Below are positions 535 through 41,390 of a DNA stretch of 41,390 bases, one piece after another; positions within the stretch are counted from its first letter, which is position 1; every line of letters begins with the position of its first letter. Location: assembly GCA_016178595.1 (NCBI GenBank), contig JACOSY010000040.1:1-41390 (forward strand). The letters are read 5' to 3'. Origin of the DNA: Ignavibacteria bacterium (GTDB taxonomy: Bacteria > Bacteroidota > Ignavibacteria > UBA10030 > SZUA-254). A program made the position numbers and the translations under genes. The notes beneath the pieces were generated by a model. That model was not told the DNA's origin and ran no database searches. It worked only from the letters and a program-made list of their open reading frames with translations.

Positions 535-3500
535 TTACTTTGCAACTGCCGTACTCTCCGCAACAAGTTTTTCCGACACAGGCACTTCAGAGTTGTATTC
601 CTGTAGCTCGCCCTCTGTGACAATTTTAGCGTACCGTGAAAGTAATGTGTACAGCACAGGCACGAGCACCAGCGTCAAGAATGTGGAGAAGAACAGTCCG
701 CCGACAACCGCCAAACCGAGCGGGCGGCGAGACTCTGCGCCGGCGCCGATGCCGATCGCAATCGGTAGCACGCCGAAAATGGTCGCGAATGACGTCATCA
801 GGATTGGCCGGAGCCGGATCGTGGCTGCATGAACCACCGCATCGAACACCGATTCTCCGCGCGCGCGAAGCTGGTTCGAGAATTCCACGATCAAAATCGA
901 GTTCTTGGTAACAAGACCGATGAGCATGATCAATCCGATCTGTGAGTAAATATTCAAGCTTTCTTTGAAGATAAACAGTGTCAGCAGCGCGCCGAACACT
1001 GCCAGCGGCACTGCAAGAAGAATCGTAAAAGGATGTACGAAACTCTCGAACTGTGCCGCGAGCACCAGGTAAATGAACACGATCGCAAGCAGGAACATGA
1101 AATAGAGACTGGAGCTTGATGATTTGTATTCCAGTGATTGCCCTGCATACTCCCGCTTCATGCCCGCCGGAAGTTTCTCGGCGGCGATGCGGTCGAGATC
1201 ATCGAGCGCTTGCCCGAGGCTGACACCCGGGGCGATGTTCGCCGTGATTTTTGCAGAACGAACCCGGTTGTAATGGTTCAGCTCCTTCGGCGCAAGGGTT
1301 TCATCGACGCGTACGACATTTGCAAGCTGTACCAATCCTCCGCCGCCGCTGCGGATGTAAATCTCCCGGATGGCATCCGGTGTGGCGCGGGCAGCGGGCT
1401 TCATCTGCAAGATGACGTCGTACTGCTTCGTGCCCCGTTTAAAATTGGTGACTGCCCGTCCGCCAAGGTACGTTTCCAGGGTTGTACCGATGTCACTGAC
1501 TGATGCACCGAGGCCTGCGGCGCGCTCCCGGTCGATCGTAAGATCGAGCTGCGGTTTATTCAGGCGCAGGTCGGTGTCGAGGTTAATCAAGTATCCCAGC
1601 TTCGACGCTTCACCCATCATTGTGCCGACAGCTTTATTCAGGTCTTCATAGTTGTCCGCTTGAATCACATATTCGACGGGACTTGAGCTGAAGCTTCCGC
1701 CGAGGCTGGGTGGATTGATCACGAACGCCAGTACGCCCGGAATTGAAATCAACCGCGGAAACAGTTCCTGAACGATCTGCTGCTGGGATTTATTGCGTTC
1801 ATTGTGCGGTTTCAGTGCAAGGAACATGAAGCCGTTCGTTACGCGCCCCGGGCCGCCGAAGCCCAGGCCAATTGCCGTAAACAGGGCGCGCCGCTCTGGA
1901 AGAGAGAGCAGACGGTTTTCCACTTCACGCATGTACTTATCCGTGTAATCCAGTGTGGCACCTTCCGGTGCAATCACAATACCGAAGCCGATACCTCGAT
2001 CTTCAACGGGGACCAGCTCGCTCGGAAGGAATTTGAAAAGCACCACGCTCAATGCAACAGTCAGCAATGCTAAGACGATCATGAGCGGCCGGTGCCGCAA
2101 TGCACCCCGGAGAATACGATCGTACGTTTTGTTGAGGAATTCGAAGAACGAATCGAATGACCGCGAAACCCATCCGGTTCCTGTGCCGTGAAGCGGCTTG
2201 AGAATCCGGGAGGAGAGCATGGGCGTAAGTGTGAGGGCAACGAAACCGGAGATCAATATTGCCACGGCAAGCGAGAGGCCGAACTCGTTGAACAACCGTC
2301 CGACCGACCCGGTTAGGAATGCAAGAGGGACAAATACCGCGACCAGCGTAATAGTCGTTGCGACCACTGCAAAGCCGATTTCCTTGCTTCCATCAAAAGC
2401 AGCCTGCCGACGGCTCTTTCCCATTTCCATGTGGCGGTACACGTTTTCCAGCACCACGATCGCATCGTCCACGACGAGACCGATGGCAAGCACCAATGCC
2501 AGCAGCGTCAGGATATTAATCGTGAACCCGGCGATGTATGCTGCAGCAAACGCGCCAATAATTGAAATGGGAATGGCAACTGTTGGAATGGTGGTTGCCC
2601 GGAGACTTTTCAGGAACGCCAGGACGACGAGCACCACAAGACACATGGCGATGATCAGCGATTCCGTAACCTCATTAATCGAATCGTTGATAAAGGTTGA
2701 GGAATCATACGCAACGTCTAACTTCATGCCTGCGGGCAGAAGCCCCGATAGTTCCTGCAATGCGTTGCGAACTTCTGCGGCAACATCAACCGTGCTTGCC
2801 TTCGATTGTTTGACGATGCCGAGACCAACTGCCGATTGTCCGTTGTATCGGGCCACGGTTCGTTCATCTTCCGCGCCAACATTCACTTCGGCAACATCGC
2901 GGAGACGTACGATATCGTCTTTGCTTTGCGACACGATGATAGCGCCGAACTCTTCCGGTTTAGAAAGTTCTCCACGCGTGCGGACGGAAAATTCGCGTTC
3001 CGCACCTTCGACTCTTCCGGCAGGTATCTCGGCGTTCTCCCTGCGGATTGCCGCTTCGACATCCTGCGTCGTCAACCCGTGGGCGGCCATGCGCAAGGGA
3101 TCGAGCCATACACGCATCGCGTAACGGCGCTCGCCTCCGATAATGACCGATCCGACGCCGGGAATGCGCTGGATCCGTTCCTTCAAGATGCGGTCGGCGA
3201 CATCGGTAAGCTCCAATCCGTTGTGGCGTTCGCTGAACAACGCGAGCCAGACGATCGCCTGTGCATTGGCATCGACTTTCGAAATAGTCGGGTCGTCGAT
3301 CTCGCGCGGAAGTTTTCCTCGCACGCGCGAGACGCGGTCGCGAACATCGTTTGCCGCTTCATCGACGTTCCGGTTTAATTCGAATTCGATGGTGATGACC
3401 GATCCCTGCTCGCGGCTCGACGAGGTCATCGTCTTGACGCCTTCCAGCGTTGCGAATTGCTCTTCCAGCACGTTGGTGATCTCGGTTTCCACGACGCTGG

Positions 3501-3786: not shown

Positions 3787-4239
3787 CTAATCCCAGATAT
3801 ATCTCTCATCATACTCAACCTCCTGCTCCTTGAGGAAGTTCAGCAACTCCTCCTGAAATGTTGCCCGACGATGGTGCTGTTCCTGGTTAGCGATGTAGTT
3901 TCTCACTCTTTCTATATGACCATAACTGACACTGAAGGCGCCAAAGCCCGTTTGCCATGCAAACTTCGTGTGCGATGGGAATTGTTCATGCACCCACCGT
4001 GAGGAGTTTGCTTTCACTGTTCGCAAAACATCGGAAAGAGCAAGTCTCGGTGGCAAAGATGTTAGTATGTGAACGTGGTCTGCTATGCCGTTGATGAGGA
4101 TTGGTTTCCCGTCTAGCTCCCGAACGATACCTCCTATGTAGGGGAAAAGTCGAGATCGCAATTCGGCATTGATGAATGGAAACCTATTCTTGGTGCTGAA
4201 CACGATATGAGTTAATAACCGGGTGTATGTATGGGACAT
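3787..4239 (-). CDS. REP-associated tyrosine transposase (RAYT, Y1_Tnp/IS200-like)
   Basis: 150 residues from the ATG at 4239, which has an AGGAGG ribosome binding site 7 bases upstream; the upstream ATG at 4245 is too close to it. Y1 transposases cut single-stranded DNA at hairpins using an HUH motif and a catalytic Tyr. Here the HUH motif is HVH (residues 55-57, in GIADHVHIL) and the likely nucleophile is Tyr115 in RVRNYIANQEQHH. SSRWVHEQF, FAWQTGFGAFSVS and the C-terminal EYDERYIWD are typical of the family in Bacteroidota. The same frame is open upstream through the whole repeat array to the duplicated RND start at 5136, giving a potential 449-residue fusion. REP-like palindromes lie immediately next to it, as expected for RAYTs, which are usually single-copy and not part of a classical IS. 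Confidence 0.9.
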   Translation of the reverse strand: MSHTYTRLLTHIVFSTKNRFPFINAELRSRLFPYIGGIVRELDGKPILINGIADHVHILTSLPPRLALSDVLRTVKANSSRWVHEQFPSHTKFAWQTGFGAFSVSYGHIERVRNYIANQEQHHRRATFQEELLNFLKEQEVEYDERYIWD

Positions 4240-4304
4240 GATCATGCCTCCTTCTTTATAATAATCACGCATACGATGGTGAAAGGATTGTCTATCGCCC
4301 CTCT

Positions 4305-4355
4305 GGGGCTTGTGAATATTTCTTTTCTCTATTATCCCATCGCTTATGCGATGGG
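4305..4355. repeat. Palindromes between RAYT and the 111-bp array
   Basis: Two short inverted repeats lie between the transposase and the array: GCCCCTCTGGGGC near 4305-4317 and CCCATCGCTTATGCGATGGG near 4336-4355. They resemble the REP hairpins that RAYT enzymes recognise. Similar stems occur near 3733-3745 and 5057-5070 inside the same insertion. Confidence 0.5.
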
Positions 4356-5021
4356 CAACTTCTTTCATCCCTACGGGATGATTGGTGCAGGCATCGTTGA
4401 CAGGCTGCGAGTTTTCCTTGGCGTGTCTTGCCGCCACGGAGTGGCGGAAGCCGTCTGCCCACGATGCAACTTCTTTCATCCCTACGGGACGATTGGTGCA
4501 GGCATCGTTGACAGGCTGCGAGTTTTCCTTGGCGTGTCTTGCCGCCACGGAGTGGCGAAAGCCGTCTGCCCATGATGCAACTTCTTTCGTCCCTATGGGA
4601 CGATTGGTGCTGACCTCGTTGACAGACTGCAAGTTTTCTTTCGTGTGTCGTACCACCACGGAGTGGCGAAAGCAATCTGTCCATGATGCAACTTCTTTCA
4701 TCCCTACGGGACGATTGGTGCTGACCTCGTCGAGAGACTGCGAGTTTTCCTTCGCGTGTCGTGCCGCCACGGAGTGGCGAAAGCAATCTGTCCATGATGC
4801 AACTTCTTTCGTCCCTACGGGACGATTGGTGCAGGCATCGTCGAGAGACTGCGAGTTTTCCTTCGCGTGTCGTGCCGCCACGGAGTGGCGAAAGCAATCT
4901 GTCCATGATGCAACTTCTTTCATCCCTACGGGATGATTGGTGCAGGCATCGTTGACAGGCTGCGAGTTTTCCTTGGCGTGTCTTGCCGCCACGGAGTGGC
5001 GGAAGCCGTCTGCCCACGATG
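4356..5021. repeat. Tandem array of six 111-bp units with two palindromes each
   Basis: Units begin at 4356, 4467, 4578, 4689, 4800 and 4911, exactly 111 bp apart (666 bp in all). Each carries a CATCCC-TAC-GGGATG type hairpin (first at 4366-4380; some units read CGTCCC-TAC-GGGACG, a compensatory pair change) and a CCGCCAC-GGA-GTGGCGG type hairpin (first at 4431-4447). Paired substitutions that keep the stems suggest selection on DNA or RNA structure. Because 111 is divisible by three, several reading frames stay open across the array; those open frames are not evidence of coding. Confidence 0.9.
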
Positions 5022-5083
5022 TGAGTCGTGGGAAAAGAAAAGAACAAGTCAATGATAGCCTCGGAGAGGCGATAGACACAAAA

Positions 5084-5152
5084 CTCATCACGCTGGCAAA
5101 TACCGGACGCTTGATGGATGTTGTGCTGAGTTTCATATGGGTAATTCCTTAT
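5084..5152. repeat. 69-bp direct repeat, adaptor-proximal copy (orphan RND start)
   Basis: Identical to 3614-3682. It retains the RND leader and an ATG at 5136 with codons MKLSTTSIKRPVFASVMSF, after which the sequence diverges into the insertion. This is probably the original position of the RND start, 36 bp after the adaptor stop. Confidence 0.9.
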
Positions 5153-35225: not shown

Positions 35226-35272
35226 CGAAATTGCCCACGAACGTTTTTTGAGAGTGGATGCAATTTCGAGGA

Positions 35273-35289
35273 TCCCGCCGCAGGCGGGA
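35273..35289 (+). promoter_or_regulatory. Hairpin overlapping the kinase ribosome binding site
   Basis: TCCCGCC, loop GCA, GGCGGGA. The right arm contains most of the Shine-Dalgarno GGGAGG (35286-35291), 8 bases before the ATG at 35300. When folded, this stem would hide the ribosome binding site. The same hairpin, with loop AAA, lies at 442-458, so the arm may be a dispersed repeat. Confidence 0.5.
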
Positions 35290-35299
35290 GGCGTGGCTT

Positions 35300-38212
35300 A
35301 TGATTGGGACGACCGTTTCTCACTACAAGATACTTGAGAAGCTCGGCGAGGGCGGGATGGGCGTGGTGTACAAAGCCCAGGATACTTCGCTTGATCGTCT
35401 TGTCGCCCTAAAATTTTTGCCTGAACGTCTATCTTCTTCATCTGAAAGCAAAACGCGCTTCATTCGGGAAGCAAAGACTGCCGCCACGTTGAATCATCCC
35501 AACGTGTGCGTTATTCACGAGATCGATGAGTATCACGATCAGCAGTATATCGCTATGGAGTACGTTGATGGCATGACATTGAAGAAAAAGATATCCTCTG
35601 TCGAAAACAATGAGCGTATGCCGATACGTGACGTGATTACTTATGCCATCCAAATCGGAGAAGCCTTGCACGAAGCTCATACACGCGGAATTATCCATCG
35701 TGATGTCAAGTCGGATAACATCATGGTGAATTCCAAAAACCAACTAAAGGTCATGGATTTTGGACTTGCGAAAATGAAAGGTTCGCTGGGGCTGACTCGC
35801 ACATTGACCACCGTTGGAACGTTGGCGTATATGGCACCGGAACAAATACAGGGCGGCGACGCCGATGCACGCTCGGATATTTTTTCACTGGGCGTCGTAT
35901 TCTACGAGATGCTGACCGGCGGCAAGCTGCCATTTCGCGGCGAACACGAAGCGGCAATGATGTATTCGATCGTCTATGAAGAGCCAATTGATCCGCAGAA
36001 GTTCGGAGTTGAAATTCCTCTCGAAGCGAAGCACGTTTTGGCGCACGCATTGATGAAAAATCGGGAAGATCGTTATCAGTCGGCAGCCGAGATGGTGAAG
36101 GATCTTCAGAATATCCTTTCACCTCAATCGACCATGATAGGAACCCGGCCTTCCAGCATGAAGAGTACAATACATGTACGCAAGAGTTCAACTCGATGGC
36201 TGCTTGTGAGTGCTATTCTCGTTGGCGGAGTCTTGATAATCTGCGGATACATGTATTTCATGAAAGGAGATTTCGTCCACAGGGGTTCTGGTAAGGACAA
36301 TACTACACTTGCGGTACTATCCTTCGATAACTTTTCCGATCCAGAGGATAAGGATCATACTGGTGAAATGATCGCCAATCTTCTCATTACTTCGCTGTCG
36401 CAAGTCAAAGGATTGGAAGTGATTAGTAATGAACGGTTATCTGCAATTCAAAATGAACTTGGACATCCAGCCGCGAAAAACAAGACTCCTGACCTTGCTA
36501 CGACGATTGCACACCGGGCTGGCGTTGGGATGATGTTGCTGGGAAGTATTTTGCAGCATCATCCGACGCTTGTTGTTACTGCGCGCCTCATTGATGTGGA
36601 GACAGGAAAAATATTGGCGGCTCAACAAATTGTTGGTGTTTCTGGCTCAAGCATATTCGCGCTCGTTGATAGTTTGGCGCAGATTGTAAAGGACGACCTG
36701 CGTATCTCACCGGGCTCCTCGAGTGAAACCAAGTCGCTCTCGGAAGTAACAACAACCTCCGCAGAGGCATATCGGTCATACCTGGCTGGACTGGAATTGC
36801 AGAATAAACTGTATTGGAGTGAAGGCGAAGCTGCCCTCAAGAAAGCGATACAACTTGATAGCACGTTTGCTCTTGCCTATTTGGCATTGGGAGATGTTCG
36901 GAAAGCATGGCAATTCAGCGGCAAAGTCACGGAAAAAGAGCGCATGCAAATTCATGCTGCCTATCTGAAAGGCATAGAGAAAAAAACTTCACAAGCGATA
37001 GATATATTGGAGCAACTCGTTGCAAAATATCCTCACGAACTCAGTGCATATTACACTTTGCAGGAGTACTATTATAGCTTGTTTCAGTTTGAAAAGGCAA
37101 TAGACGCCAACTTGCGGGCAGCGCGCATCGATTCACTCGACAAAGTGCCGTGGCAAAATCTTGCTTATCTCTATGCAGATCAAAACCGACAGAGAGAAGC
37201 CTTAGACGCTGCGGATCAATATGTGAAACTCTCGCCCGCCGAACCGAATCCCTACGATACGAAAGGCGATGTGTACGCAAAGTTTGGGGAAGGAGATTCA
37301 GCGATGATTTGGTATAAGCAGGCGCTGTCATTCCGCCCGGATTTCTACAATACCGCCGAAAAGATCGGGTTCATCAATGTTTTACAGAACAAATACGATG
37401 AAGCAAAGAAATACTTTCAACAATATGGGTCTTCACCAGAAATAGCGAAGAAAGCATGGGCGGAGATCGATGCCGTGTGTATGATGATGCATCAAGGAAC
37501 ACTTAAAGATGCAGAGCAACGACTTCTGAAATTGGCCGCCAGCCATCGGGCAAAAAAGCTTCAGGAACACCTCCTTGCAGATTATTCACTGCTCACGCAT
37601 ATCGCACGAGCGCGCAATGACAACACTGCGCTGTTGGCGTATGCAGAAAGTTACGCTGCCCATGCGACGAACGACAAGAATAATCTTGTTCGAGGCATGG
37701 ACGTTTTGGCGAGAGCATACGCAGCAATCAAGGAGAGCACAAAGGTACGCGAAATACTTGGCGAGATCGGTTCTCTCACTCCTCATCCCACGCCCGGATT
37801 TCAATTGCTCTATCATCGGTGTGCAGCGCTCGTAGCGTATGACGAACAGCGATACTCGGATGCACTGCACGAGTTCAACAACGTGTTCGAGATTCAACCG
37901 CCGAACCTTCGAGATCATCTCCCGTACGGAATTTGTCTCTTCAAGGCTGGACGAACAGGAGAAGCAATCGCTGAATTCCAGCAACAGACAAATTATTTCC
38001 CGGAGGATACTCCCGATCGGCGTGATTGGCCCATTACCTCCGTGATTTCACAGTACTGGACGGGAGTTGCTTATGAGCAACAGCACGATATAGTCAAAGC
38101 AATCGAATCATACAACAATTTTATGAGAATATGGAAAGATGCCGACAGAGATCTACCGGTGTTGATAAGTGTTCGATCCCGACTGGAGAGACTGCGAAAA
38201 ATGGGGGCATAA
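35300..38212 (+). CDS. Membrane Ser/Thr protein kinase (PknB type) with TPR repeats
   Basis: 970 residues from the ATG at 35300, with GGGAGG 8 bases upstream; an upstream in-frame start at 35258 lacks one. The kinase domain (about 8-265) has the glycine loop LGEGGMGVVYKAQD, Lys38, catalytic H133-R-D135 (IIHRDVKSDN), D153-F-G and APE (YMAPEQ), so it should be active. A single TM lies at about 300-321. The outside part begins with a CsgG/FlgO-like or TolB-like domain (TLAVLSFDNFSDPEDKDHTG), followed by many TPR repeats to the C-terminus. Kinase-TM-TolB-TPR proteins are frequent in Ignavibacteria and related groups; substrates are unknown. Two decayed copies of the same gene start lie just upstream. 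Confidence 0.93.
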   Translation: MIGTTVSHYKILEKLGEGGMGVVYKAQDTSLDRLVALKFLPERLSSSSESKTRFIREAKTAATLNHPNVCVIHEIDEYHDQQYIAMEYVDGMTLKKKISSVENNERMPIRDVITYAIQIGEALHEAHTRGIIHRDVKSDNIMVNSKNQLKVMDFGLAKMKGSLGLTRTLTTVGTLAYMAPEQIQGGDADARSDIFSLGVVFYEMLTGGKLPFRGEHEAAMMYSIVYEEPIDPQKFGVEIPLEAKHVLAHALMKNREDRYQSAAEMVKDLQNILSPQSTMIGTRPSSMKSTIHVRKSSTRWLLVSAILVGGVLIICGYMYFMKGDFVHRGSGKDNTTLAVLSFDNFSDPEDKDHTGEMIANLLITSLSQVKGLEVISNERLSAIQNELGHPAAKNKTPDLATTIAHRAGVGMMLLGSILQHHPTLVVTARLIDVETGKILAAQQIVGVSGSSIFALVDSLAQIVKDDLRISPGSSSETKSLSEVTTTSAEAYRSYLAGLELQNKLYWSEGEAALKKAIQLDSTFALAYLALGDVRKAWQFSGKVTEKERMQIHAAYLKGIEKKTSQAIDILEQLVAKYPHELSAYYTLQEYYYSLFQFEKAIDANLRAARIDSLDKVPWQNLAYLYADQNRQREALDAADQYVKLSPAEPNPYDTKGDVYAKFGEGDSAMIWYKQALSFRPDFYNTAEKIGFINVLQNKYDEAKKYFQQYGSSPEIAKKAWAEIDAVCMMMHQGTLKDAEQRLLKLAASHRAKKLQEHLLADYSLLTHIARARNDNTALLAYAESYAAHATNDKNNLVRGMDVLARAYAAIKESTKVREILGEIGSLTPHPTPGFQLLYHRCAALVAYDEQRYSDALHEFNNVFEIQPPNLRDHLPYGICLFKAGRTGEAIAEFQQQTNYFPEDTPDRRDWPITSVISQYWTGVAYEQQHDIVKAIESYNNFMRIWKDADRDLPVLISVRSRLERLRKMGA

Positions 38213-38237: not shown

Positions 38238-38266
38238 TTGACAATTGACTTTGGAATATGTACCAT
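38238..38266 (+). promoter_or_regulatory. sigma70-like promoter of proline-rich repeat gene
   Basis: TTGACA (38238-38243) and TACCAT (38261-38266, 4/6 to TATAAT) with 17-base spacing, about 28 bases before the ATG at 38295. Transcription would start near 38273, so the leader is short and contains AAAGGAGA. This indicates that the gene has its own promoter, apart from the kinase gene. Confidence 0.6.
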
Positions 38267-38294
38267 GTAACTCATTCAACAAAGGAGACATAGT

Positions 38295-38654
38295 ATGGAA
38301 GTGACGACGCGAGTGCAAGAAGCTGCTAAGCTTCGCGCTGAATTTCGTAGGAATGGAAAGCTTCGCCTTGAATATCTTGCAGCCATGTCGAGACTGCTTC
38401 GTGAATACGGCATCGGAATCGACGACGAGTCTCTTGCAAATATGGTGCCCGCAGATATTGCAGAACTGTATGCTGAGGGACCGCCTGGAGGCCCTCGTCC
38501 GGCTCCAAGTTCATTACCGGGTGGACCTCGTCCAGCACCGCAATCATTGCCGGGCGGCCCTCGTCCGGCTCCAAGTTCATTACCGGGCGGCCCTCGTCCA
38601 GCACCACAATCATTACTGGGCGGTCCTCGTCCGGCTCCAAGCATTCGTCCCTGA
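38295..38654 (+). CDS. Proline-rich repeat protein, candidate substrate of prolyl hydroxylase/GT60
   Basis: 119 residues with AAAGGAGA 6 bases before the ATG. The first ~62 residues are a charged helical domain without signal peptide (RAEFRRNGKLRLEYLAAMSR, LREYGIGIDDESLANM, VPADIAELYAEG). Residues 65-119 are five 11-residue repeats: GGPRPAPSSLP, GGPRPAPQSLP, GGPRPAPSSLP, GGPRPAPQSLL and GGPRPAPSIRP. The SS/QS variants alternate. The layout of leader-like helix, GG and repeated core resembles RiPP precursors or modular substrates, but no known leader family is recognised. An opposite-strand frame is also open because the repeat is GC-rich; the plus strand has promoter and ribosome binding site. 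The neighbouring hydroxylase and glycosyltransferase suggest modification of its prolines; this is inference. Confidence 0.75.
   Translation: MEVTTRVQEAAKLRAEFRRNGKLRLEYLAAMSRLLREYGIGIDDESLANMVPADIAELYAEGPPGGPRPAPSSLPGGPRPAPQSLPGGPRPAPSSLPGGPRPAPQSLLGGPRPAPSIRP
38491..38640 (+). repeat. Five tandem 33-bp repeats encoding GGPRPAP units
   Basis: Five 33-bp units encode the 11-residue repeats. Alternate units are more alike (66-bp higher-order period), for example the two SS units share CCTCGTCCGGCTCCAAGTTC. This suggests expansion by slippage or unequal crossover of a two-unit block, with frame preserved. Confidence 0.85.
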
Positions 38655-38836
38655 TACCCGAGTAGAAGAAGAGACCCCGATCTCATTTCTTAATGCGGCT
38701 TGTTCGTCGGTCTAATGTCGGCATGAAGGGCATCGTTTGATGACAAGCGATGTATTCACCATATATTGTAGATGGCTGATTTTTTGTTGAGTGCAAACAT
38801 CGGGGCCACGATATCCCATTAAACTATAGTTAAGCG

Positions 38837-39433
38837 ATGGTTGTGAATAATCTCGGTACCGTTATCGAAGAGATTGCGGGGATAATATCTCTTCCCCTTT
38901 TTTCTCCAGAGGAGTGTAAGCTTTTTGTTTCAGAAGCGGAGAACAGTAATCAGTGGGAGTTGGCGAAAGTGCATGGAGGTCATCACGATGGAGACGTTCG
39001 ATGGGTTACCAATGCCGAGGTGCGCAATGCTTATGTGATGGGTCTTTCCTCTCTCTCCTCTGTCTCGCAGCAGTTCGATCTCAGAATCAAGGAGTATATC
39101 CTCCCACTTATAGCCACGAAGTGGAAGGTTCATCTAAGGGAACATGCAGGTGCACAGATTCTTCGCTACACGCCCGGTGGACATTATGTCGCTCATATCG
39201 ACAGCGGTACCGATCTTGATGATAGACACTTCAGCGTTGTCTGCTACCTGAACGATGACCTTACAGGCGGTGCGACGAGTTTTCCCATGATCAATTATGC
39301 TACTACGCCACAATGTGGAAAAGCGATCATCTTTCCTTCAGAATATCTCCATCAAGCCGAACAGGTTATCAGCGGACGCAAATATGTCATCGTTACGTGG
39401 ATCATCGGGCCGGTTCCTGTATCGTGGATATAA
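38837..39433 (+). CDS. Prolyl 4-hydroxylase-like 2-oxoglutarate/Fe(II) oxygenase
   Basis: 198 residues, the size of minimal bacterial P4H proteins. The 2OG-Fe(II) oxygenase core has facial-triad residues H120-x-D122 (GGHYVAHIDSGTD) and H172 (EYLHQAEQ), with the 2OG-binding basic residue in SGRKYVIVTW (Lys182). LRYTPGGHY, SVVCYLND and GGATSFP are typical of P4H family strands. These enzymes hydroxylate peptidyl proline using O2 and 2-oxoglutarate. The 119-residue protein upstream supplies five proline-rich repeats as a candidate substrate. The GT60-type glycosyltransferase begins 22 bp downstream on the other strand, converging with this gene. No strong ribosome binding site is seen. Confidence 0.88.
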   Translation: MVVNNLGTVIEEIAGIISLPLFSPEECKLFVSEAENSNQWELAKVHGGHHDGDVRWVTNAEVRNAYVMGLSSLSSVSQQFDLRIKEYILPLIATKWKVHLREHAGAQILRYTPGGHYVAHIDSGTDLDDRHFSVVCYLNDDLTGGATSFPMINYATTPQCGKAIIFPSEYLHQAEQVISGRKYVIVTWIIGPVPVSWI

Positions 39434-39455
39434 TGTTTCCCTTCGTACATGTTCT

Positions 39456-40415
39456 TCACCAATAAAAAGGTTTAAGCGGTTCATCTTCCAACGGTCTCAA
39501 TGCGGGAGTCAACCGGTAATTTGAAACTGATCGCCGCGCGAAATCAATTCCAGTGAACTTCCCATAATCAGCAAGAGACCGCACGTTCCCCAGCCCGTAG
39601 CTCTTCAGATCGACAAGTACTTCGTCCGTTGCATTCTCGATGCCCAGAAGGTGATTCACACGGCGTCGCGATTTCGTATCCATCGAAAGCCAATCCGGTA
39701 CATCATCCCAGTGTGTTGGTCTGTAATCCCTTTCCCAATAATGATAGATGACCGGAATATTCGGATAAAAAATATCCCATCCGTGAGTCCACAATCGGAC
39801 CGACAATGAAATTTCTTCTCCGAAAAAGTACACATGCGGATCGTACGGTACCTCTGAAAGGATCTCCGCGGGGCCGAAGAGGAAACACGTGCCGCACAGC
39901 GCTCCGGGAATCGGCCGATGTGGTCTGCTCGTCAATGGAATCTCGATTGAGCCAAGGAGCAATGTTCCATGTTCGTCAAAGTGCGATGGAACAATGACAG
40001 GAATTGAACGACGCGAGATACTGTTCGGCGGTATATACGGACCCGGGTATGTTGTGAGCAATGGTTTTTTCGAAGGGCACACGTTGAGGAGCTCGATCAT
40101 CATTCGGTCCCATCCATCTTCGAAGCGCATGTGGCTGTCTATTTGCAGCACAAATTCTTCTCCTGCCCACTGCTGTTGGATGAGATGCCGAGCCCAACAC
40201 ACGCCCCGGCTCTCCGCTGCATCCACTCGAATATAGCGGATCTGGTGATCGCGGTTGAGGATATGCGGTGGCTTAGAGTCTTTTTCCGGTATTGATTGCA
40301 GACAAACCGCGACGGCGAGCCGGTCGGGGCGTTCTGCTTTCTCAAATAAATCGTGGAGGGTTGGCAGCAGCTCCGGGTCGCGATAACTTGGTATCTGGAC
40401 AAAAATTCGTTCCAT
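39456..40415 (-). CDS. GT60-type GlcNAc transferase (PF11397-like)
   Basis: 319 residues from the ATG at 40415 (a TTG at 40418 adds one). The N-terminus MERIFVQIPSYRDPELLPTL, followed by HDLFEKAERPDRLAVAV, fits the GlcNAc/GT60 family, as do ESRGVCWARHLIQQQW and the metal-binding motif LQIDSHMRFEDGWD (D93-S-H95). GALCGTCFLFGP, FFGEEISLSVRLWTHGWD and the later HYWERDYRP are also family features. In Dictyostelium and other protists this family adds alpha-GlcNAc to hydroxyproline of Skp1. Here the gene lies next to a prolyl hydroxylase-like gene and a proline-rich repeat protein. Sugar donor and acceptor are not proven by sequence. A SAM methyltransferase gene ends 29 bp upstream on the same strand. 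Confidence 0.87.
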   Translation of the reverse strand: MERIFVQIPSYRDPELLPTLHDLFEKAERPDRLAVAVCLQSIPEKDSKPPHILNRDHQIRYIRVDAAESRGVCWARHLIQQQWAGEEFVLQIDSHMRFEDGWDRMMIELLNVCPSKKPLLTTYPGPYIPPNSISRRSIPVIVPSHFDEHGTLLLGSIEIPLTSRPHRPIPGALCGTCFLFGPAEILSEVPYDPHVYFFGEEISLSVRLWTHGWDIFYPNIPVIYHYWERDYRPTHWDDVPDWLSMDTKSRRRVNHLLGIENATDEVLVDLKSYGLGNVRSLADYGKFTGIDFARRSVSNYRLTPALRPLEDEPLKPFYW

Positions 40416-40444
40416 CAATCAGTCACGGAAAAAGTAAGAGAAAC

Positions 40445-41065
40445 TTATGAGACAAGAAGATCGTTGATGTTCCAAACACCCATACATTTATCGGAATCCT
40501 CACCGCCATCCCAAATACCATGCTCTCGAACTATGAGCAATGGGGCGGGGAACTGAAAAAGCCGACGTTGCAAATTGAGCGGTCTCCAATCACCAGTGTC
40601 GATGTCGTAATTTTCTTCGATACCTGTGAATGTCGTCGTCATGAGGTAGATTGACCGGCTTTGCCGCATAGTTTGGAGAGAGCGACGGATATCGGCAAAC
40701 GAAAAATGGACAAAGCAATCGCGGCAGAAGATCAGGTCGACGCGGGGAAGAGCATCGCGTGTGACGTCCAGATGACAGAATCGTTTTCGCTCGCTGCCGG
40801 ATGTTCGAGAGTTTCGCTCGACAAGCTCGGGGACGATGTCGGCACCGATGTACTCGTCGATGTCCAGGGTAACTTCCCGCATCCAATGATGATCGCCGCA
40901 CGGGACGTCGATCATCGATCGCACACCAAGTTCTTTGATGACGAAAGGGAGCTCACGACGGATCGCAACAGTATTGAATATACTGGAACCGGATCCTGAG
41001 GTGGTTTCAGAATTTCCCCACCCATTGTGTTGATAGATACGAGTAAAGATTTCTTTCATCGTCAT
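40445..41065 (-). CDS. Class I SAM-dependent methyltransferase
   Basis: 206 residues from the ATG at 41065; alternative starts at 41059, 41089 and a TTG at 41119 are possible. Methyltransferase motif I is MIDVPCGDHHWM (DVPCGD, about residues 53-58), followed by YIGADIVPELVERN (motif II, Asp binding SAM ribose) and LIFCRDCFVHFSFADIRR (motif IV region). Such enzymes methylate sugars, proteins or small molecules; the acceptor cannot be told. It precedes the GT60-type gene by 29 bp on the same strand, so they are probably co-transcribed. That makes it a plausible third modifier of the peptide or its glycan. Confidence 0.85.
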   Translation of the reverse strand: MTMKEIFTRIYQHNGWGNSETTSGSGSSIFNTVAIRRELPFVIKELGVRSMIDVPCGDHHWMREVTLDIDEYIGADIVPELVERNSRTSGSERKRFCHLDVTRDALPRVDLIFCRDCFVHFSFADIRRSLQTMRQSRSIYLMTTTFTGIEENYDIDTGDWRPLNLQRRLFQFPAPLLIVREHGIWDGGEDSDKCMGVWNINDLLVS

Positions 41066-41390
41066 CGTTGTGTCTCGCGCGGGACTCATGAATATACGCA
41101 CTACCTCATAGGGAATCAAGAGTATGCGAGTGAGGGTAGTGCCTTATTTTCGGTGATGTGGTTTGACTCCGCTCACCACGACGCGTCGTCCTGAGCGAAG
41201 TCGAAGGACATTCTGAATCAAATTCAGGCAGTACCCGAGTGAGGTGATCGCCCTGTTGCCTCACGTAAGAATCTAAACGAAACTGATTCGTTGCCTCACG
41301 TAAGAATCTCGATGAAATAGTGGAGTCATTCGGTTGCCTTTTAGGGTGGAGGATGCGGCTTCAGACTGGCTGATGGTGGAGTATCGTGAA
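41066..41390. other. Intergenic region with palindromes and a short tandem repeat
   Basis: No gene is seen. GTCCT/AGGAC ends enclose GAGCGAAGTCGA at 41188-41209, a widespread extragenic palindrome type. CTGAAT-CAA-ATTCAG lies at 41213-41227. A 20-bp direct repeat GTTGCCTCACGTAAGAATCT occurs at 41255-41274 and 41290-41309, 35 bp apart; only two copies are present, so it is not a CRISPR array. Confidence 0.55.

Follow-up and report, generated by a model that had tools for sequence, protein, structure and literature searches.

To our knowledge, the glycosylation of hydroxyproline has no known case outside eukaryotes, and we know of no acceptor for any bacterial GT60 enzyme, i.e. for the glycosyltransferase type to which the N-acetylglucosamine (GlcNAc) transferase of Skp1 belongs. 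Here, we analyze a gene cluster at the right end of a 41,390-nucleotide contig of an Ignavibacteria bacterium (JACOSY010000040.1; this whole stretch is referred to as the window), which encodes a tandem repeat protein, a prolyl-4-hydroxylase (P4H)-like oxygenase, a GT60 glycosyltransferase and an S-adenosylmethionine (SAM) methyltransferase. It probably represents a small modification cluster akin to those of ribosomally synthesized and post-translationally modified peptides (RiPPs), in which a leader-bearing precursor would be hydroxylated at its core prolines by the oxygenase and glycosylated at the resulting hydroxyprolines by the GT60 enzyme, with the methyltransferase being optional or unrelated.

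In the Skp1 pathway, the GlcNAc transferase GNT1 acts on hydroxyproline following a prolyl hydroxylase (PMC11570480). The window, with its PF11397 (GT60) enzyme, resembles this sequence of events as known from Dictyostelium and Toxoplasma. There, however, the modification concerns a single proline in a folded subunit of a ubiquitin ligase and serves oxygen sensing, whereas the window holds a bacterial leader-plus-repeat precursor; its candidate substrate is not Skp1, but a leader-repeat peptide without Pfam match. Plant hydroxyproline-rich glycoproteins and CLE peptides, which are modified by P4Hs and HPAT (GT95) transferases, likewise combine proline-rich repeats with a P4H, and a transferase with a weak Pfam HPAT match is encoded at a related locus in a Terriglobales metagenome-assembled genome (MAG; locus L125). 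In contrast to these products of the plant secretory pathway, the system described here is a bacterial gene cluster with its own leader and, in the window, a GT60 enzyme. Multi-core RiPPs share the conserved leader, the variable tandem cores and the adjacent modifying enzymes. Yet, the window leader lies outside the Pfam and NCBIfam families, and the conserved enzyme is a P4H-like 2-oxoglutarate (2OG) oxygenase rather than any known class-defining enzyme. The bacterial P4Hs that act on elongation factor Tu (EF-Tu) in Pseudomonas putida and Bacillus anthracis have the same fold and ligands and are the closest solved bacterial relatives, but modify a housekeeping substrate instead of a dedicated neighboring candidate. 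Finally, glycocins are also ribosomal peptides that are glycosylated by a transferase from their own cluster; they carry the sugar on Ser, Thr or Cys, without preceding proline hydroxylation, and rely on different transferase families.

In Pfam, NCBIfam and the searched, mainly open-access papers on GT60, HPAT, prolyl hydroxylases, RiPPs and the glycosylation of hydroxyproline, we came across no account of such a class. The logic of RiPPs, the reaction of P4Hs and the addition of sugars to hydroxyproline all have precedents; what appears to be new is that a bacterial leader-plus-repeat system combines them.

The precursor and its leader family

The main features of the locus are as follows.

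38238–38266 (+): sigma-70-like promoter TTGACA-N17-TACCAT, 5' of the precursor gene (consensus scan, 10/12 positions; weak evidence alone)
38281–38287 (+): ribosome-binding site AAAGGAG, 7 nt 5' of ATG 38295 (sequence reading)
38295–38654 (+): repeat open reading frame (ORF), the precursor of 119 amino acids (aa)
38295–38477 (+): conserved precursor leader, 61 aa (homology to the leaders at loci L125, L126, L041, L142, L029 and L030)
38487–38651 (+): multi-core region, five 11-aa units GGPRPAP(S/Q)SLP, the final unit reading GGPRPAPSIRP (tandem repeat finder, codon comparison)
38837–39433 (+): P4H-like 2OG-Fe(II) oxygenase, 198 aa (PF13640, predicted model, fold matches)
39456–40418 (−): GT60 (PF11397) glycosyltransferase that converges on the oxygenase, with a DSH motif at 40131–40139 (PF11397, E = 6e-75)

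An earlier sequence-only reading of this DNA had pointed out five GGPRPAP repeats, which are indeed present as an array with a period of 33 nt in the 119-aa ORF. Codon comparison of the units revealed 38 synonymous versus 18 non-synonymous pairs, the latter chiefly reflecting the S/Q alternation and the final unit. This synonymous excess indicates that the repeat is under preservation at the protein level. That reading had not mentioned the N-terminal leader, which is what marks the protein as RiPP-like. The first ~60 residues are homologous to leaders from six other bacteria, spanning three phyla altogether. When the window leader was scored against a profile of the remaining ones, it reached 61.0 bits, as compared with 7.8 bits for the top of ~1,900 shuffles; across all leaders, the same leave-one-out procedure gave 57–70 bits versus 7.8–14 bits. 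Neither the window precursor nor its Acinetobacter homologue matched any Pfam or NCBIfam family up to E = 1, including known RiPP precursor families such as Nif11-like and NHLP. Because of this leader, the repeat protein is, as judged from its sequence, a RiPP-like precursor: it is gene-encoded and consists of a conserved leader and variable cores.

The family came to light through a tblastn search of plasmids with the oxygenase, which led to two small peptides. On a 7-kb plasmid of Acinetobacter johnsonii (L029), a 74-aa peptide ends 6 nt 5' of an oxygenase gene, and on Sinorhizobium meliloti pAK76 (L030), an unannotated 72-aa peptide overlaps the oxygenase start. The two share 51% identity (E = 8e-15), align over their first ~60 residues with the N-terminus of the window repeat protein and carry a single short LPGGxNC core at or near the C-terminus. 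A profile of these three leaders was then used for a blind test against 395 genomes of the window's phylum. One clear new match was obtained in a genome from a different class (G280, locus L041; E = 2.9e-9). This protein, which was located by its leader alone, comprises 141 aa with the leader and seven DGPPPAPTH-type units, whose codon differences are 62 synonymous versus 5 non-synonymous, and the next gene on the same strand encodes an oxygenase with 41% identity to that of the window. The enlarged profile added one further genome, G648 (E = 6.4e-15), whose protein is considered below together with the alternative explanations. Six weak leader matches (G356, G335, G052, G274, G028 and G574; E ~5e-4 to 9e-3) were dismissed as chance; the first three have no oxygenase nearby. 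A leader-alignment scan of viral contigs and a leader search of phages gave no match.

Conversely, when 84,980 species genomes were scanned with an alignment of the oxygenase, two full-length relatives with 44 and 48% identity emerged. As these were found via the oxygenase, the reverse of G280, the leader is the finding here. In the Terriglobales MAG (L125), the oxygenase is preceded at 13 nt by a leader plus DAPATPGGHPPARP repeats, while in an Acidobacteria gp4 MAG (L126), leader, (N/S)IPPQGG repeats and a long Lys/Pro tail precede it by 243 nt. In all six loci with downstream DNA, the oxygenase starts −16 to 243 nt downstream of the precursor on the same strand. Moreover, the leader adjoins only the seven most window-like of 169 oxygenase ORFs in the fetched loci. 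Four precursors thus carry distinct tandem proline-rich cores (GGPRPAPxSLP in five copies, DGPPPAPTH in seven copies, DAPATPGGHPPARP and xIPPQGG). Across these types, the core regions contain 21–28 prolines each, with Pro as the dominant residue common to every unit, the unit number is 5–7 and the precursors measure 119–178 aa, as compared with 72–74 aa for the single-core relatives. The conserved kernel is the leader peptide plus the oxygenase; cores and further tailoring genes vary by bacterium. Its spread is sparse, with three genomes out of several hundred in the window's phylum, the Terriglobales starting genome alone among 135 Terriglobales, and plasmid members in Pseudomonadota, as expected for mobile secondary-metabolite genes.

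The gene content of the two plasmid loci differs. Apart from genes for replication, toxin-antitoxin and DNA methyltransferase functions, the Acinetobacter plasmid (NZ_CP068190.1, 7.1 kb) carries only the 74-aa leader peptide and the oxygenase, and two larger plasmids are similar. The Sinorhizobium locus (pAK76 76268–84744) harbors RiPP-type genes, namely a B12 radical-SAM protein and a CypD/CoaC-like flavoprotein next to the Cys-ending core, in addition to two 2OG oxygenases, a JmjC/cupin protein and a sulfotransferase-like protein. This RiPP-type cluster around the same leader looks undescribed, and its gene content suggests decarboxylation of the C-terminal cysteine.

The P4H-like oxygenase

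The assignment of the neighboring gene to a P4H-like oxygenase with an HxD...H triad, as originally proposed, held up. The protein matches PF13640 (E = 7.8e-15), and the ligands H120-x-D122...H172 as well as the 2OG lysine K182 are all present. Its identity to the leader-adjacent oxygenases at L041, L125 and L126 amounts to 41–48%. The predicted model (predicted local distance difference test score, pLDDT, 89.5) shows a double-stranded beta-helix fold, with the EF-Tu-bound P4H of Pseudomonas (Z 21.1) and an algal P4H with (Ser-Pro)5 (Z 21.0) as top fold matches, and Bacillus and other P4Hs rank first with a sequence profile of the family. In a phylogenetic tree, the four repeat-linked oxygenases cluster (support 94/91), and a weakly supported branch (56/90) has the seven leader-linked ones all on the same side. 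Hydroxylation of the core prolines by this enzyme is therefore likely on the basis of sequence and model, and since Pro is dominant and common to all core types, peptidyl-proline hydroxylation would be the most likely reaction. The L125 locus also encodes a second, divergent HxD-type oxygenase-like protein (2320–3243, −) beside its HPAT-like transferase, without confident Pfam match.

GT60 and other glycosyltransferases

The GT60-type enzyme with its DSH motif, previously noted as converging on the oxygenase, is equally evident: PF11397 is matched with E = 6e-75, and D94-S95-H96 are invariant in 10 homologues (the likely start is ATG 40415). It was probably acquired horizontally, because it is the sole strong PF11397 match among the 395 genomes of the phylum. 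Single-protein scans of viral contigs and genome contigs with the GT60 enzyme returned no relative.

At two other loci, different glycosyltransferases adjoin the leader-oxygenase pair. In G280, a GT2_4/GT92-type glycosyltransferase and two DUF6625 proteins are encoded past the oxygenase. At L125, a glycosyltransferase fills the place of GT60, also converging on the oxygenase, and exceeds the cut-off of the HPAT profile PF23452 (27.2 versus 23.9 bits), with a weak and partial match (profile positions 94–221 of 307). Two transferase families with hydroxyproline-directed members may thus stand beside one kernel, and this analogy is the strongest hint toward sugar transfer onto hydroxyproline. Similarly, GlcNAc addition by the GT60 enzyme is plausible by analogy. 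As GT96, a family of serine transferases, is a relative of GT95 (PMC8012813), Ser/Thr remain candidate targets of the L125 transferase.

GT60 was also considered as a conserved marker of the system, but was discarded in this role, as the loci of its plasmid and phage homologues contain no oxygenase of this type. On plasmids of Burkholderia ambifaria and Paraburkholderia sprentiae (L023 and L024), which share their gene order, type VI secretion loci contain a GT60 gene that comes immediately after a gene annotated as "fimbrial protein" and is adjoined by RHS/PAAR/VgrG genes. Furthermore, the large phages XacN1 of Xanthomonas and CM1 of Stenotrophomonas (L027 and L028) carry a GT60-family gene, with a carbamoyltransferase gene directly after it in XacN1.

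Proposed pathway and alternative explanations

Based on these assignments, the gene at 38295 would give rise to a precursor that is composed of a ~60-aa leader, presumably acting as recognition element for the enzymes, and a tandem array of five proline-rich cores. The P4H-like Fe(II)/2OG oxygenase encoded next to it would then hydroxylate the core prolines, as suggested by its family, its fold and the conserved pairing. Conceivably, the convergent GT60 enzyme subsequently places a sugar, most likely GlcNAc, on the new hydroxyprolines, which is consistent with knowledge of the family and with the different hydroxyproline-type transferase that is likewise placed in a relative. The sequence-only reading had united all four genes in one pathway and named a lack of conserved co-occurrence in relatives as evidence against it. 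For the repeat substrate and its P4H-like oxygenase, the opposite was observed: this pair recurs, with different repeats, in distant bacteria, which supports the idea of a dedicated substrate. GT60, in contrast, is not conserved with the pair, and the methyltransferase belongs to a widespread class and has no homologue at any related locus, which leaves the suggested methylation of the product unsupported. More tentatively, and short of an even chance in our estimation, the family as a whole may constitute a horizontally scattered new bacterial RiPP class in which, as the defining step, a dedicated P4H hydroxylates prolines of tandem proline-rich cores under guidance of the leader, and which independently recruited hydroxyproline-directed transferases from at least two families that are best known from eukaryotes (GT60 and HPAT-like).

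If correct, the GT60 and HPAT pathways would seem to have relatives in bacteria, and the known precursor families would be joined by one that is invisible to current RiPP-mining models. With its own repeat substrate, such a compact bacterial system could then be used to study the hydroxylation of prolines and their subsequent glycosylation in a simple and reprogrammable setting, and the window precursor is a concrete candidate substrate for bacterial GT60 enzymes.

Several observations on the proposed sugar transfer weigh against this pathway. GT60 and methyltransferase are encoded on the opposite strand, 22 nt from the oxygenase stop, and could be a neighboring convergent pair that acts on something else, e.g. 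a surface polysaccharide or a different protein, which would reduce the system to precursor and oxygenase. None of the other leader loci contains GT60, its homologues on plasmids and in phages, some of them within type VI secretion loci, have no P4H beside them, and the methyltransferase class is widespread, with one homologue in a polysaccharide cluster. No glycosyltransferase is found near the L126 and Acinetobacter pairs, and glycosylation would therefore be an accessory step. Moreover, an HPAT profile search of the phylum and of L125's own genome gave no match, not even the L125 transferase itself, which makes the search uninformative, and a single-sequence model of this transferase (pLDDT 40) offers no structural confirmation of its weak HPAT match. 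Nevertheless, we regard a mere neighborhood as somewhat unlikely: the L041 and L125 pairs also adjoin glycosyltransferases, that of L125 is from a hydroxyproline-transferase family and convergent too, and the lack of GT60 elsewhere in the phylum sample is expected if it arrived with the cluster.

Other objections concern the oxygenase and the nature of the product. The oxygenase might oxidize a non-proline core residue (e.g. Arg, Leu or Gly) or catalyze another oxidation of a still RiPP-like substrate, as 2OG oxygenases of the same fold accept various residues, among them Pro and Lys. In the fold comparison, PKHD-type enzymes and lysyl hydroxylases (Z 19–20) come close to the P4Hs, so that a proline target is not forced, and prolines are few in the single-core Sinorhizobium and Acinetobacter peptides. 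This is nonetheless quite improbable given that Pro dominates every unit of the four repeat types, that the G280 cores contain neither Lys nor Arg, and that peptidyl-prolyl enzymes head both the fold and the profile matches. A structural, extensin-like hydroxyproline-rich surface protein that retains its leader, instead of released small peptides, would agree with the variable unit number, which is typical of structural repeat proteins, with the long Lys/Pro tail of L126 and with the genes around the precursor: no protease or exporter was recognized from the kinase gene at 35258 to the contig end (41390), although such genes can sit elsewhere. We consider it unlikely, since no signal peptide is apparent by eye, the precursors are short and the single-core relatives, one of them within an RiPP-type cluster, resemble ordinary RiPP precursors. 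The G648 leader protein (L142, 9003–9371) fits the proposed pathway poorly as well. It has a Pro/Glu-rich tail in place of a tandem repeat, and its contig stops ~140 bases past the gene, before an oxygenase could appear; its core may be degenerated or work differently. Lastly, an ORF on the opposite strand overlaps the repeat ORF, and GC-rich repetitive DNA readily opens extra frames. The chance that the latter is spurious and lies beside the oxygenase by accident is negligible in view of its ribosome-binding site, synonymous bias and conserved pairing, and the distant leader homology by itself already refutes this idea.

Neighboring genes and further observations

The contig ends at 41390 and stems from a 3.1 Mb genome that is 97% complete. 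At its right end, a kinase with tetratricopeptide repeats (TPRs), the repeat protein and the oxygenase are encoded in this order on the plus strand, followed by GT60 and methyltransferase on the minus strand. The two outer genes are:

35258–38212 (+): Ser/Thr kinase with TPRs
40445–41119 (−): class I SAM methyltransferase with DVPCGD motif, immediately 5' of GT60 on the same strand, of doubtful pathway membership (weak Methyltransf_25/12/23 matches)

The DVPCGD motif that had led to the methyltransferase assignment is present, whereas the Methyltransf_25/12/23 matches all remain under the Pfam cut-offs. A role as conserved partner was rejected: no homologue was detected at any fetched related locus, and the plasmid homologues lie in unrelated contexts. 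Whether optional or unrelated to the pathway, its membership is doubtful. The upstream Ser/Thr kinase was likewise not retained as partner. A kinase also accompanies the L126 pair, but with 16 kinase-domain matches in the window genome, adjacency carries little weight.

Elsewhere in the window, a Por secretion C-terminal sorting domain was found in two of the ten proteins scanned, a feature that points to the Bacteroidota. A region with a Y1 (IS200-like) transposase (3787–5136, −) is located between genes for resistance-nodulation-division (RND) efflux. Upstream of the transposase, six 111-bp tandem copies (4355–5021) form an array with the in-frame reading MKEVASWTDCFRHSVAARHAKENSQ..., whose frame is open into the transposase and which is reminiscent of the repetitive extragenic palindromic (REP)-type repeats associated with Y1 transposases.

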